DNA of 64,000 bases, from positions 124,001-188,000 of the forward strand of contig NZ_SPQR01000004.1 of the NCBI RefSeq assembly GCF_004766055.1, given 5' to 3'. The position numbers and the translations under genes were made by a program. The DNA comes from Desulfosporosinus sp. Sb-LF (lineage in GTDB: Bacteria > Bacillota > Desulfitobacteriia > Desulfitobacteriales > Desulfitobacteriaceae). Below are positions 37,074 through 45,415 of the stretch, in pieces; the first letter of the stretch is position 1, and every line of letters starts with the position of its first letter. Under the pieces are notes generated by a model. The model was not told the DNA's origin and ran no database searches. It saw only the letters and a program-made list of their open reading frames with translations.

Positions 37074-38249
37074 CTAGTCCAACTCTATAACCGCTGTTTT
37101 TAAGCGCTGTAATCCTTCTTCTATCACTGAGCGGGAACAACCCAAATTGAGCCGCGCAAAGCCTTCTCCTCCAGGTCCAAATAGGTAACCGGCATTTAAG
37201 CCTACCCCCGCCTTATGTACTAGGAATTTCTGTAATTCCTTCGGTTCCATCCCCAATGCCCTAAAATCAAGCCACATCAGGTAGGTTCCTTCAGGTCGGA
37301 TCGCCTGAATCTGGGGCAGCTCTCGGGCAAGGAAGGATACTAAAAACTCTTCGTTTCCCTTCAAATAGTGCATTAGCTGTTCCAGCCAATCCCAGCCATG
37401 ACGATAGGCTGCTTCCATTGCCGTTATGCCGAACACATTAGGATGATGAATTCCGGTCAAATCTAGTGATGCTTGATAGCTCTGTCGAAGCGTGGAATTC
37501 GGAATAATCAAGTTCGAGGTTTGCAAACCAGCTAGGTTGAACGTCTTGCTAGGGGCTGTGCAAACAATCGATTGCTCGGCCAATTCTGGAGATAGAGAGG
37601 CGAAGGGAATATGTCGATAACCCTCATAGATAAGATCACCATGAATTTCGTCAGAAATGACTAGGACATCCTGAGCTACGCAAAGTTTTCCTAAGCGTTC
37701 CAGTTCTCCTCGTCCCCACACTCGCCCAACAGGATTGTGCGGGTTGCAAAGAATCATCATCTTAACACCACTTGTAAACTTCTCTTCCAAGTCCACAAAA
37801 TCCATGGTGTACCGACCGTCTTCCAAGATTAGCTGGCTATTCACAACCTCACGGCCATGATTTTTTATCGCCTGAAAGAAAGGCGGATAAACTGGGGATT
37901 GAATAAGAACTTTATCCCCAGGCTTAGTTAAACTCCGTACTAATTCATTTAATGCTGGAACAATTCCGGGGCTGAATGTAATCCAGTCTTTTTGGATCAC
38001 CCAACCATGCCTCTTCTGAGTCCAATCAATGAGCGCCAGGTAATATTCGTCCGTTCCGTCTGAATAACCGTATATTCCATGCTTCGCACGGTTCACCAAT
38101 GCCTCAATCACGTCATCTGGGGCAGGAAAATCCATATCAGCGACCCACATCGGCAAAATGTCTTCGCGACCAAAAAACCGTTGATTAAAATCCCATTTTA
38201 TGGAACCAGTGTCTTTCCTGTCGGTTATTTGGTCAAAATCGTAGCGCAT
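37074..38249 (-). CDS. MalY/PatB-type PLP-dependent C-S lyase/aminotransferase
   Basis: This is a 391-residue class I/II aminotransferase-fold enzyme. The PLP lysine is in CTAPSKTFNLAGLQTSN (about 238), with NPHNPVGRVW and SDEIHGDLIY upstream and the Arg that binds substrate carboxyl near the C-terminus (FARLNLGCSRSVIEEGL). The N-terminal WVADMDFPAPDDVIEAL is typical of the PatB/MalY subgroup, which cleaves cystathionine or cysteine conjugates. It follows the hydroxylase small subunit by 61 bases and may be cotranscribed. Confidence 0.9.
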   Translation of the reverse strand: MRYDFDQITDRKDTGSIKWDFNQRFFGREDILPMWVADMDFPAPDDVIEALVNRAKHGIYGYSDGTDEYYLALIDWTQKRHGWVIQKDWITFSPGIVPALNELVRSLTKPGDKVLIQSPVYPPFFQAIKNHGREVVNSQLILEDGRYTMDFVDLEEKFTSGVKMMILCNPHNPVGRVWGRGELERLGKLCVAQDVLVISDEIHGDLIYEGYRHIPFASLSPELAEQSIVCTAPSKTFNLAGLQTSNLIIPNSTLRQSYQASLDLTGIHHPNVFGITAMEAAYRHGWDWLEQLMHYLKGNEEFLVSFLARELPQIQAIRPEGTYLMWLDFRALGMEPKELQKFLVHKAGVGLNAGYLFGPGGEGFARLNLGCSRSVIEEGLQRLKTAVIELD

Positions 38250-38310: not shown

Positions 38311-38769
38311 TCAAATGCCCTCAGAAGCAGCCTTTATCGCATGGACGATCTTGTTATAGCCAGTACATCGGCAGAGATTACCCGCTATAGAGAGCTTAAT
38401 TTCTTCTTCGGTTGGATGAGGATTTGCCATTAGTAAGGCTTTTGCGGACATGAGCATTCCCGGTGTACAGTAGCCACATTGAACTGCGATGTTATTAATA
38501 AAGGATTCCTGTAGTCTATCTAACTGTCCGTCCTTTTCCAGTGCTTCGATGGTAAGTATTTCCTTACCTCTGACTTGAGGTGCTAGGACAAGGCAAGAAT
38601 TAACCGCTTTTCCATTCATAATGACTGTGCAAGAGCCGCACTCTCCTTCACTACATCCTTCTTTTGTCCCCGTTAGTCCTAGTTCCTCTCTCAACAAATC
38701 AACTAATCTCATGGTTGGACGAATATCCATCGTATGCTCTTTTCCGTTAACCGTAAACTCTATAAGCAT
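38311..38769 (-). CDS. [2Fe-2S] subunit of a xanthine dehydrogenase-family hydroxylase
   Basis: This 152-residue protein carries both iron-sulfur clusters of the family: the plant-type ferredoxin motif CSEGECGSCTVIMNGKAVNSC (about 38-58) and the CGYCTPGM...CRCTG motif (about 98-138). It passes electrons from the molybdenum site onward. It lies 18 bases after the large subunit. No FAD-binding middle subunit is present next to it, so electrons must go to another acceptor or to a FAD subunit encoded elsewhere. Confidence 0.95.
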   Translation of the reverse strand: MLIEFTVNGKEHTMDIRPTMRLVDLLREELGLTGTKEGCSEGECGSCTVIMNGKAVNSCLVLAPQVRGKEILTIEALEKDGQLDRLQESFINNIAVQCGYCTPGMLMSAKALLMANPHPTEEEIKLSIAGNLCRCTGYNKIVHAIKAASEGI

Positions 38770-38787: not shown

Positions 38788-41064
38788 TTAAACTATTTCG
38801 ACTTCTAAAGACTGATCGGCTATTAAGGCAGTCAATATTTTTTCTGGTGTCAGTGGCATGATTGATAAGGCTGTCCCAAGAGCATTGTTTACAGCATTGA
38901 TCACAGCAGCAGCAACAGGAACGAAGGCTATTTCCCCCACACTTTTGGCACCGAAGGGACCTTCATCTCCTCCTTGTTCAATCAAAAACGTTTTGACTGT
39001 GGGCATATCAGGAGCATTAATCACATGATAGTTTTTGAAACTGCTGTTCAGGATACTGCCGTCTCTACCTACCCTTACTTCTTCAAATAAGGCGTAGCCT
39101 ATCCCCATCTGAACGCCCCCCTGAATCTGTCCTTCGACCATTCCAGGATTTATTGCTTTTCCAATATCATGAACTGCCAGATAATCTGTAACACTGACCT
39201 TGCCAGTCTTTGTGTCAACCTCGACCTCGGCGAAATGTACGGCATATACACCCGGATTAGACGACCCATGATAGGTATGCGTAATCACGATGTCGGTATC
39301 ATCCATGATTTTAGCGGTCGTCGCAATTTCACGGTAACTTAGGGCATGTTGTTCATTTCCAATAACCAATACTTTTCCGTCTTCTGCCTTTAAAGACAGT
39401 TTAGGCTTCTGCATAATAAGGGATGCACATTCCAATAGTTTCTCTTTAACCATCTTAGCTACTTCATAGGCACAGGCACCACAAATATAGGTAACTCTAC
39501 TCCCATAAGAACCAAAATCATAAGGTCCATAGTCTGTATCTGCTTCTAAAACGGTAATGTAACTTGGATCAAGATCTAATACCTCGGCGGCAATCTGTTT
39601 CATCGAAGTAATCGTTCCACAGCCAATATCATGTAGACCAGTATTCAAAATGAAACTGCCATCCTCATTCATTTTCAGGGTCATGGTGCTATGTTCAGGA
39701 AAACCGCCGTACATACCATTTTTATGGGCTGCGCAGGCAAATCCTATCCCCCGGCGATACCTACCGTCACCCGGATCCCTCTTATATCGGTTGCTCCAAC
39801 CAAACGTTTCAGCCCCTTTTTTCAAACACTCAATTACCTGAGCATTTCCCAGTGAAAAGTGGGAAGCTTTATCAATATCATAGGGATGAACAAGATTCTT
39901 GAGTCTGAATTCTACAGGGTCCAACATCAACCTTTTGGCTACAGCATCCATATGGATTTCCAGAGCAGTCATTATTTCAGGAGCACCCCACCCTCTTGCC
40001 CCACCTCCAACCGGTGTATTGGTATATACAATCCTTCCATGATGTTTGTAATAAGGGATTCTATATAATCTCGATGTTTTCTTGGACATTGCAAAAGCAT
40101 TGTCCACAGAACTGGTAGCGTAGGCTCCAGCATCTATAACGCTATCAACCTTGCAATCGACCAGTATTCCACCTTTTGTGACACTTGTTCGTATACTAGT
40201 ACTCGTTGCAGGTCTCGTCATAGTAGCGATAATGCTTTCTTCCCTATTAAACATTAATTTGACAGGACGTCTAACCGCCTTGGCTAAAAAAGCGGTAATC
40301 GGCTCAATGATCGCTTCTTGTCTTCCGCCGAAAGAACCTCCAGTGGGCATTTTGATGACTCTTACTTTGTTATAGCTCAATTCCAGCAAATCCGCGACAA
40401 TTGTTCTAACGCCAAAAGCCCCTTGACAAGCAGCCCAGATGGTAAGCTTTCCAGAACTGTTGTAGTCTGCCACACAGACATGGGTTTCCAGCGCTGCATG
40501 ATGCACTTTTTGAGTAACGGTCGAGGTCTCCACAAAGATGTTCTCATTAAATATTGGAGTCTTTTCTCCTAGTTCGTAAGTAAACTGATGGATCAAATTC
40601 CCGTTTGGATGTATTTTCGTTTGATAATCCAGTAGAGCTTCCTCTGGAGTACTCAGAACAGGTAGTACATCGTAATCCACTCTAATCAGGGAAACGGCTT
40701 CCTTGGCAATTTCTAGGGTGGTAGCTACCACCGCAGCAACTCGATCTCCTGCAAATCGTACCTTTTCAGTAAAAAGGCGCTCATCCTCCGTACAAAATTC
40801 TTGATTAGGAACAATCCGATAGCGACTGTAAGGTTTGTTTGGGGTATTTATATGCGTAAAAACTCCTATAACTCCAGGAAGCGCTTTCGCTCTGCTTGTA
40901 TCAAGTTTCGTAATTAGCCCGTGGGCAATTGGACTTAATAGCAATTTTGCATACAACATATTGGGCAATTTCATATCACTAACATACACCAATTCTCCCC
41001 TCACCTTTTGAGTCGCATCATGAATTGGAAATGTTTTTCCGACATATTTCAAATCCTTGTTCAA
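38788..41064 (-). CDS. Molybdopterin-binding large subunit of a xanthine dehydrogenase-family hydroxylase
   Basis: This protein of about 758 residues has the two aldehyde oxidase/xanthine dehydrogenase domains: the a/b hammerhead near the N-terminus (GKTFPIHDATQKVRGELVYVSDMKLP) and the molybdopterin domain with TGGSFGGRQE (about 235) and GGARGWGAPE (about 350). The catalytic Glu region near the C-terminus is PFGAKSVGEIAFVPVAAA. The substrate is unknown; purines or aldehydes are typical. TTG 41064 fits the GGGAGTG site better than the GTG at 41073. A terminator separates it from the Mop-like gene upstream. Confidence 0.9.
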   Translation of the reverse strand: MNKDLKYVGKTFPIHDATQKVRGELVYVSDMKLPNMLYAKLLLSPIAHGLITKLDTSRAKALPGVIGVFTHINTPNKPYSRYRIVPNQEFCTEDERLFTEKVRFAGDRVAAVVATTLEIAKEAVSLIRVDYDVLPVLSTPEEALLDYQTKIHPNGNLIHQFTYELGEKTPIFNENIFVETSTVTQKVHHAALETHVCVADYNSSGKLTIWAACQGAFGVRTIVADLLELSYNKVRVIKMPTGGSFGGRQEAIIEPITAFLAKAVRRPVKLMFNREESIIATMTRPATSTSIRTSVTKGGILVDCKVDSVIDAGAYATSSVDNAFAMSKKTSRLYRIPYYKHHGRIVYTNTPVGGGARGWGAPEIMTALEIHMDAVAKRLMLDPVEFRLKNLVHPYDIDKASHFSLGNAQVIECLKKGAETFGWSNRYKRDPGDGRYRRGIGFACAAHKNGMYGGFPEHSTMTLKMNEDGSFILNTGLHDIGCGTITSMKQIAAEVLDLDPSYITVLEADTDYGPYDFGSYGSRVTYICGACAYEVAKMVKEKLLECASLIMQKPKLSLKAEDGKVLVIGNEQHALSYREIATTAKIMDDTDIVITHTYHGSSNPGVYAVHFAEVEVDTKTGKVSVTDYLAVHDIGKAINPGMVEGQIQGGVQMGIGYALFEEVRVGRDGSILNSSFKNYHVINAPDMPTVKTFLIEQGGDEGPFGAKSVGEIAFVPVAAAVINAVNNALGTALSIMPLTPEKILTALIADQSLEVEIV

Positions 41065-41221
41065 AATCTTCACTCCCGTGCCTTATTCACACATCTTCGA
41101 GCAATCATCTGAATTCATATCTAATTATATTGGTAATTATAGCATTAATTGAACCTAAAAAGTTTACGAGAATTTGACATTGCCAAGAATCGACCCGATG
41201 TGTAGATTAACGTAGAAGGTG

Positions 41222-41268
41222 AAAAAAAATCGGGTAGGTAATTCATAGAATACAGAATTACCTACCCG
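41222..41268 (-). terminator. Terminator after the Mop-like gene
   Basis: CGGGTAGGTAATTC pairs perfectly with GAATTACCTACCCG around a 10-nt loop, followed by eight T on the minus strand. It lies 30 bases past the Mop stop and insulates the hydroxylase genes downstream. Confidence 0.92.
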
Positions 41269-41298: not shown

Positions 41299-41517
41299 TT
41301 AGTGTTTTACAAATACCACGTTTATAGCTTTGATTAGAGCTTCTACTGTATCTCCTTCTTTAAAACCAGCGTCTTCGAGGCTTTCCCGCGTCATCACGGA
41401 CGCGACTTCGGGGGCATTGTTTCAACCCTCAACACTCATTTTGACCAAGGCCATAAGCTCATCGGTCTTGATTTCTTCAATGACACCATAAATCTTGTTT
41501 CTTACTCCAGCTTCCAT
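41299..41517 (-). CDS. Molbindin-like (Mop/TOBE) protein with in-frame UGA, candidate selenoprotein
   Basis: ATG 41517 has an ideal AAGGAGGTG site. The frame reads MEAGVRNKIYGVIEEIK, then LMALVKMSVEG, then UGA (codon 32, 41422-41424), then 40 codons beginning NNAPEVASVMTRESLED and ending VEALIKAINVVFVKH. Both halves form one Mop domain, the small molybdate/molybdopterin-binding fold of molbindins. Just after the UGA is a stem-loop with bacterial SECIS geometry. Selenocysteine at residue 32 is therefore plausible; a nonsense mutation or base error is the alternative. The gene lies between the surface protein gene and a molybdenum hydroxylase and has its own terminator. Confidence 0.7.
41387..41404 (-). 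promoter_or_regulatory. Candidate bacterial SECIS stem-loop
   Basis: On the mRNA, CGCGUC pairs perfectly with GACGCG around the 6-nt loop CGUGAU. The stem starts 17 nt after the in-frame UGA, placing the apical loop 23 nt downstream with a G at its second position. Bacterial SECIS elements typically have the loop about 16-37 nt away with a G in its first two positions. Confidence 0.55.
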
Positions 41518-41599
41518 TTATAGCACCTCCTTCGATTTCCCAGTTATTGTTAGCTAAAATGCCCAAAATAATACTGGGAAATGAAGAATACGACTAACA

Positions 41600-44208: not shown

Positions 44209-44385
44209 GTGAAAGCACTCCAAACCCGAGAATTTCTCGAAGCATCAGGGAATCTTAAACCCAGCCCGCTATGGTGAGTGATACAACGTGTTTCTGATAG
44301 TGCCTTTCATATTTGGTTAGTCATCTTAAGTTATCGAAAATCTATCACGTTAGCAGAAGCCTTTGTGTCCATTGTGGAAAGGTGA
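44209..44385 (+). pseudogene. Short degenerate ORF with an in-frame UGA, unrecognised
   Basis: From GTG 44209 the frame reads VKALQTREFLEASGNLKPSP, LW, then UGA (44275-44277), then VIQRVSDSAFHIWLVILSYR and on to a stop at 44385. Both halves look protein-like, but no ribosome site or SECIS-like hairpin is seen. It is most likely a gene fragment decaying in this 600-base gap. Confidence 0.25.
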
Positions 44386-44427: not shown

Positions 44428-45186
44428 CTAATCCTTAATCAAGTTTGACAAACCCTCATCGAGATCATACTTCATGCCTATAACTTTAACTTGTTTTGCT
44501 TCCATACCCTCTTTAACAATGGGACTCCTGGAGATATCCGTAAGAGCATCCTGAATATTTAGATCAGTACTCTTTTCTATTAATTCTTTGCCAGTTGCCC
44601 CTGTAGCCCTAGCCTCATTGACTGCGGGTTTAAGTTTCTCAATGATTGCTGCAATACTACCGTGTGTTTCACCGCCCTGCACAGCTGCTGTGACAGCACC
44701 GCATTCCTCATGACCTAGAACTACCACTAAAGGAGCCTTTAGATGTTCAACCGCATACTCTATGCTTCCCAATTCGACTGGGGTAACGACATTTCCCGCA
44801 ACACGGACGACGAATAAGTCACCGAGGGCTTGGTCAAATAAAAGTTCGGGTGGTACCCTTGAGTCTGAGCAACTCACAATAATGGCAAATGGGTGTTGTC
44901 CATTCTTCATCAAATCGCTTCGTCTTGTATAACTAAAGTCCTTACTCAAGGGCGTACCCGAAGTGAAACGCCGATTTCCCTCAACGAGAAGTTGTTGTGC
45001 TATCTCTGGTGAGGAAATTACCTCGACTCGTTTGTAGACGGGAGCTGCAATAACCTGCTGAACGGCCAAGTTTTCCACCTCTGAAGATTGTTTATCAGCC
45101 ATTGGCGAGGTTTGACTTCCGCACCCACTTAGGATCATCGCTAGACTAAGTAACGCGGCACCGATATAAGTTAATGGTTTCTTCAC
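44428..45186 (-). CDS. Beta-carbonic anhydrase, lipoprotein
   Basis: The core of about 200 residues is a beta-class carbonic anhydrase with all zinc and catalytic residues: Cys, Asp and Arg in VSCSDSRVPPELLFD and His and Cys in LGHEECGAVTAA. It is preceded by a lipobox leader (LLSLAMILSGCGS), so the enzyme acts on the outer face of the membrane, interconverting CO2 and bicarbonate there. GTG 45186 is chosen because AAGGAG is well spaced before it. Surface carbonic anhydrase lipoproteins are less common than cytoplasmic ones. The gene is a single unit. Confidence 0.93.
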   Translation of the reverse strand: MKKPLTYIGAALLSLAMILSGCGSQTSPMADKQSSEVENLAVQQVIAAPVYKRVEVISSPEIAQQLLVEGNRRFTSGTPLSKDFSYTRRSDLMKNGQHPFAIIVSCSDSRVPPELLFDQALGDLFVVRVAGNVVTPVELGSIEYAVEHLKAPLVVVLGHEECGAVTAAVQGGETHGSIAAIIEKLKPAVNEARATGATGKELIEKSTDLNIQDALTDISRSPIVKEGMEAKQVKVIGMKYDLDEGLSNLIKD

Positions 45187-45415
45187 AGTTTCTCTCCTTT
45201 GCATTCCTATTCATAGGCCAAATTCTTGACATATAGTCAGTTTGCCGTAAACCTTGACGTTTTAGTCCTACCCGTAAACCATCGATGATATTAGGCAAAG
45301 CGCAAGAGGTTCACCGTGTCCAACTTCTGTTCGATTCGGTCAAGCTATAGAAGGCATCATTCGTTGTCAATGAAATGTGACCCTAAAAGTTTTTTATCAA
45401 ATACTAGAACGAACG

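Follow-up and report, generated by a model that had tools for sequence, protein, structure and literature searches.

A predicted selenocysteine-containing protein of the molbindin fold in Desulfosporosinus and other Clostridia

The window examined here is a 64,000-nucleotide stretch of DNA from Desulfosporosinus sp. Sb-LF, and its minus strand carries at 41517..41299 a small gene, which we call sec-mop, whose product is in all likelihood a genuine selenoprotein: the UGA at codon 32 would be decoded as selenocysteine (Sec) by SelB and tRNA-Sec through a downstream hairpin. A Sec-containing molbindin made by way of a bacterial SECIS was the core claim of an earlier note on this DNA, and it is now strongly supported by UGA invariance, codon freezing and covariation among relatives and by tRNA-Sec, SelB and a Sec-containing FdhA in the host. 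Sequence comparison further indicates that sec-mop is a monophyletic selenoprotein family of the Clostridia, with one or two predicted Sec residues per subunit, shared by dozens of anaerobes. The family appears to be undescribed, a new Sec-containing form of a known fold.

The gene and its in-frame UGA

The features of the locus, all on the minus strand, are these.

41299..41517, minus: sec-mop ORF, predicted 72-aa single-TOBE (molbindin-fold) selenoprotein, with TGA at codon 32 and a TAA stop
41422..41424, minus: in-frame UGA, codon 32, predicted selenocysteine, the equivalent codon being UGA in every class I relative
41386..41405, minus: SECIS-type hairpin of sec-mop, loop CGUGAU at 41393-41398, loop start 23 nt after the UGA
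41525..41530, minus: ribosome-binding site GGAGGT of sec-mop, read from the sequence
41222..41268, minus: predicted intrinsic terminator before xdh, 14-bp stem, 10-nt loop and T tract, read from the sequence
38788..41073, minus: XdhA-like molybdenum hydroxylase subunit, below every equivalog cut-off
38311..38769, minus: 2Fe-2S subunit of the same hydroxylase

The sec-mop frame, whose strand the earlier note left unstated, opens with an ATG at 41517 and closes with a TAA at 41301-41299, leaving 40 sense codons between UGA32 and the stop; with the UGA read through, the product is MEAGVRNKIYGVIEEIKTDELMALVKMSVEG-U-NNAPEVASVMTRESLEDAGFKEGDTVEALIKAINVVFVKH, a protein that lacks cysteine altogether. 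When read through it scores 28.7 bits against Pfam TOBE (PF03459; cut-off 22.3), in agreement with the original description of one TOBE domain in two in-frame halves split by UGA and followed, 40 codons on, by a normal stop and a terminator (stem and T tract at 41268-41222). As read from the sequence, the transcript appears to end at its own terminator, upstream of xdh. A second UGA-containing ORF that had been described at 44275 fared less well, as no convincing gene was found in that region.

The UGA is not peculiar to this genome. In a search of 150 related genomes it turned up at the same codon in other Desulfosporosinus members and in distant families, and a scan of GTDB genomes for relatives yielded 76 loci, among which the UGA-bearing members have predicted Sec at 32, 31, 28+32 or 14+28. 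The UGA32 class comprises Desulfosporosinus, Clostridium ljungdahlii, C. drakei and Maledivibacter; the 28+32 class Pelotomaculum, Sporotomaculum, Alkaliphilus, Anaerovirgula and Formimonas; and the 14+28 class Syntrophomonas and Thermosyntropha. Across the many Clostridia families of a single clade the UGA is kept in 48/48 sequences, never giving way to TAA, TAG or Cys, and the protein is conserved on both sides of it. Of 398 genomes spanning the phylum, 15 from about 10 families carry UGA copies, with no TAA or TAG inside the matches and every in-frame stop reported being TGA. Median pN/pS values in class I of 0.23 before the UGA and 0.19 after it (66 pairs) indicate purifying selection on both sides. 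Two decayed copies were seen in Desulfosporosinus relatives, one with an internal deletion (L009, in genome G025) and one interrupted (L013, in genome G001).

When the Sec sites are masked, a maximum-likelihood tree puts all 48 UGA rows in one clade (support 98/84); they share ancestry, so that their counts are not independent events. The clade is nested among relatives without UGA, and one state change suffices to account for it. Branching runs from the 14+28 class, near the base, through the 28+32 class to the 32 class, at the limited resolution of 65 columns; this order is consistent with relocation of Sec along the chain.

The earlier note had looked to homologues for either Cys or UGA at residue 32. 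UGA does recur, at the equivalent codon in class I relatives; the Cys forms did not materialise. In relatives without UGA, position 28 is Gln, Lys or Val and position 14 is mostly Glu, Val, Thr or Ile; none of the 17 relatives without UGA, nor of the further relatives compared, had Cys at a Sec site. Because the scan patterns avoid the Sec sites, Cys forms would have turned up. A selenoprotein family without a Cys homologue is unusual, such homologues being usual rather than defining; we do not hold their absence against Sec, since the clade to which it belongs keeps the UGA without exception.

Predicted decoding hairpins and selenium machinery

The hairpin 3′ of UGA32, CGCGUC-CGUGAU-GACGCG, has the 6-bp stem and the loop CGUGAU, 23 nt past the UGA, with which it was first described, and its synonymous sites are frozen in UGA genes only. 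The codons for its Ser-Val-Met-Thr are held as TCC-GTG-ATG-ACG solely in UGA-bearing genes: TCC is found in 45/48, GTG in 46/48 and ACG in 43/48, against 1/17, 3/17 and 1/17 in relatives without UGA that have the same amino acids (p = 2e-11 for Ser, 1e-9 for Val and 5e-10 for Thr), and the same three codons stand at 7-9% elsewhere within the UGA genes. Since relatives with the same amino acids do not freeze these codons, the constraint acts on the RNA rather than on the protein. The stem, scored over seven pairs, is 84% paired, includes C-G to U-A exchanges and covaries more than all 500 shuffles (0/500); RNAalifold recovers this main hairpin from the 28+32 class alone.

The hairpin has a weaker core in C. 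ljungdahlii and C. drakei, where an alternative fold with loop GUCU is preferred. An alternative apical hairpin with loop GUCC, proposed by RNAalifold from the pooled set, was rejected as the general element: it is 92% paired, but its shuffle count is 28/500 compared with 0/500 for the main stem. It may nevertheless play a part in these two species, for which both folds are possible.

The 14+28 class has a further element. UGA14 lies 65 nt from the main loop and is provided with its own second hairpin of 12 pairs, 95% paired and with compensatory changes, which encloses UGA28 in its loop (alignment A7, codons 14-34). Two SECIS-like elements within about 110 nt were noted in L080, L083, L086, L089 and others. 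In the 28+32 class, a 4-bp stem directly after UGA32 and upstream of the main hairpin is partly covarying and 69% paired (alignment A6, columns 18-31).

The host genome encodes SelB, tRNA-Sec and an FdhA with an in-frame UGA, which answers for SelB and tRNA-Sec the earlier query about host sel genes. All 30 tested genomes that carry the sec-mop subfamily have tRNA-Sec; it is also present in 107/151 relatives, that is, commonly in the phylum, for which reason we treat the co-occurrence as necessary rather than strong evidence and set it aside as proof of Sec decoding. Genome G025, which carries the internally deleted copy L009, gave no tRNA-Sec hit; the pairing of absence and decay may fit Sec decoding, or the assembly may be incomplete. 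YqeB, which marks selenium-dependent molybdenum hydroxylases and is also found in the host, occurs in 14/17 UGA-bearing genomes versus 4/12 others (p = 0.018).

Fold, neighbourhood and possible function

Against the NCBIfam Mop model TIGR00638 (cut-off 55) the window protein scores 35.3 bits, and this sub-threshold score marks it as related to Mop but divergent; four other UGA members reach 42-51 bits and two relatives without UGA 62-64. An AlphaFold2 model (pLDDT 86) aligns over 65-69 residues with Tub of Eubacterium limosum and Sporomusa Mop (Z 10.6 for both) and with Clostridium MopII (Z 10.5). Its first two strands span residues 7-18 (beta1) and 22-29 (beta2), and the model places Sec32 in the beta2-beta3 loop, a region of lower confidence, Sec28 where beta2 ends and Sec14 in beta1; judging by the strand register, residues 14 and 28 would point to one side of the sheet and lie roughly one diagonal step from each other. 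The oxyanion sites of the hexameric Tub and Mop are built from Ser4, Arg6, Ser40, Lys60 and Ala61 (PMC11980592). The sec-mop positions R6, T43, K63 and A64 are invariant, and Gly or Ala occupies the position of the Tub ligand Ser4.

Neighbouring genes were judged against 40 random 16-kb regions from ten of the same genomes. Genes of the XDH family lie near 3/63 mop loci and in 3/40 control regions, so the hydroxylase beside sec-mop is background. Its bit scores against the selenium-dependent XDH model TIGR03311 (344 and 169) fall under the cut-off of 830. The link that had been drawn to the adjoining xanthine dehydrogenase does not hold, as proximity is at the background level and sec-mop seems to be followed by a terminator of its own ahead of xdh; we accordingly set aside a functional partnership, and the XdhA-like neighbour probably has no functional link by position. 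Around the hydroxylase, a PatB-family C-S lyase (TIGR04350, over cut-off) lies directly downstream of the molybdenum and 2Fe-2S subunits at 37074-38249 (minus), and no FAD subunit adjoins them. Further away, 44428-45204 (minus) reads by eye as a beta-carbonic-anhydrase-like protein whose signal sequence is of the lipoprotein type. At another locus, an apparent remnant of an XDH hammerhead domain adjoins the sec-mop gene (L069:8729-9001).

Closeness to selenium-metabolism genes is not background: YedE, YedF/SirA, Se_S_carrier, SelD or cysteine-desulfurase genes are within about 8 kb at 7/63 loci versus 0/40 controls, in differing arrangements and beside relatives with and without UGA. Genes for Mo or W transporters are near three loci (L049, L070 and L101). 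Genes resembling the 2-hydroxyglutaryl-CoA dehydratase D component and its activase recur in the flanks of L056, L084, L086, L095, L097 and L104; such genes have been reported beside selenium genes (PMC5322559).

What the protein does can be proposed tentatively, at somewhat less than an even chance: it may be an oxyanion (Mo/W) buffer linked to selenium metabolism, its selenolates working as a ligand or a redox group. Stand-alone TOBE subunits would assemble into a small oligomer that binds oxyanions and is probably hexameric, as Mop and Tub are; the oligomer would buffer molybdate or tungstate; its selenolates would act as ligands to a metal or oxyanion, or else as redox groups; and the protein would in this way couple Mo/W handling to selenium metabolism. 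A fuller version is more doubtful. It holds that the selenolates, numbering 6-12 in the presumed hexamer, bind Mo, W or Se species or process them chemically in a non-enzymatic carrier, with Sec as a metal or oxyanion ligand that joins Se and Mo/W homeostasis and possibly feeds Se-dependent Mo/W enzymes, and that Sec arose from non-Cys positions and was then relocated.

Selenium itself could instead be the cargo, with the TOBE oligomer holding reduced Se species or an Se oxyanion and Sec taking part in Se transfer (the SelD, YedF, Se_S_carrier pathway) rather than in Mo/W storage. The loss of the Ser4 ligand fits such a role, as does selenium-gene proximity that extends to relatives with and without UGA, but 56/63 loci have no selenium gene nearby, Mo/W transporter genes accompany L049, L070 and L101, and the other oxyanion-site positions are invariant; we regard this as rather unlikely. 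Less probable again is that the side chain of Sec does little and that the UGA mainly ties production of a Mo/W storage protein to the selenium supply, such that Mo/W would be stored, for example, only when Sec-FDH and SDMH can be built. Variable Sec positions among classes, the lower model confidence of the Sec32 loop, and the Sec-FDH and frequent YqeB of host genomes (14/17 with UGA versus 4/12 without) would suit such a gate; it sits poorly with the retention of two costly UGAs per gene in two classes, each with its own hairpin in 14+28, with the recurrence of Sec28 and Sec32 at fixed positions, and with the fact that no clade member has replaced its UGA. That the UGA is an ordinary stop ending a pseudogene or a peptide pair, or a sequencing error, is scarcely credible despite the decayed copies L009 and L013, given 48 UGA relatives, selection on both sides and hairpin codon freezing, and the clade-wide UGA pattern rules out all of these for the family.

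Relation to known systems and significance

With the Mop proteins and molbindins (C. pasteurianum MopII, Sporomusa Mop 1fr3, Azotobacter ModG) sec-mop shares a single-TOBE subunit of about 70 aa, the fold and most oxyanion-site positions, and it departs from them in its predicted Sec at 14/28/31/32, in Gly or Ala for Ser4, in scoring under the TIGR00638 cut-off and, in the Sec32 classes, in a beta2-beta3 loop 4-5 residues longer. Tungbindin (Tub) of E. limosum, a tungstate-storage protein of an acetogenic Firmicute, has the same fold and size but no Sec, and selenium is unmentioned in its description (PMC11980592). Like FdhA and other selenoproteins decoded through a bacterial SECIS, sec-mop combines an in-frame UGA with a downstream hairpin and a host possessing SelB and tRNA-Sec; it is neither Trx-like nor of a known redox family, however, and no Cys counterparts of it were found. 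The selenium-dependent molybdenum hydroxylase trait (SelD, YqeB, YqeC; PMC2276186) has YqeB in common with the sec-mop host, but its selenium is in a non-Sec cofactor, and Mop/TOBE terms are absent from that paper.

The statement in the earlier note that no selenoprotein of this family had been described stands for the 119-family list, NCBIfam 20.0 and the searchable literature. TOBE/Mop is absent from the 2026 list of 119 prokaryotic selenoprotein families (PMC13188914 Table 1), NCBIfam 20.0 holds no dedicated sec-mop model, and a Sec-containing TOBE/Mop protein is unmentioned in deep-Sep (PMC12013277) and in a 2022 review; the open-access literature held nothing relevant on a Sec-containing TOBE, Mop or molbindin protein.

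With few exceptions, the bacterial selenoproteins that have been listed either are redox enzymes or have Cys counterparts, and it is on the Cys forms that searches depend. No such forms were found for sec-mop, and methods built on Cys/UGA pairs would therefore miss the family; the deep-Sep authors state this Cys dependence as a limit of their own filter (PMC12013277). Standard gene calling would likewise truncate or miss sec-mop genes. For the biology of these Clostridia, sec-mop would place Sec within an oxyanion-storage fold and provide naturally occurring stages of Sec relocation (14+28, 28+32, 32), including single genes in which two UGAs each have a hairpin, all within about 110 nt, and the link that it suggests between selenium and Mo/W is open to testing in culturable hosts such as Clostridium ljungdahlii.
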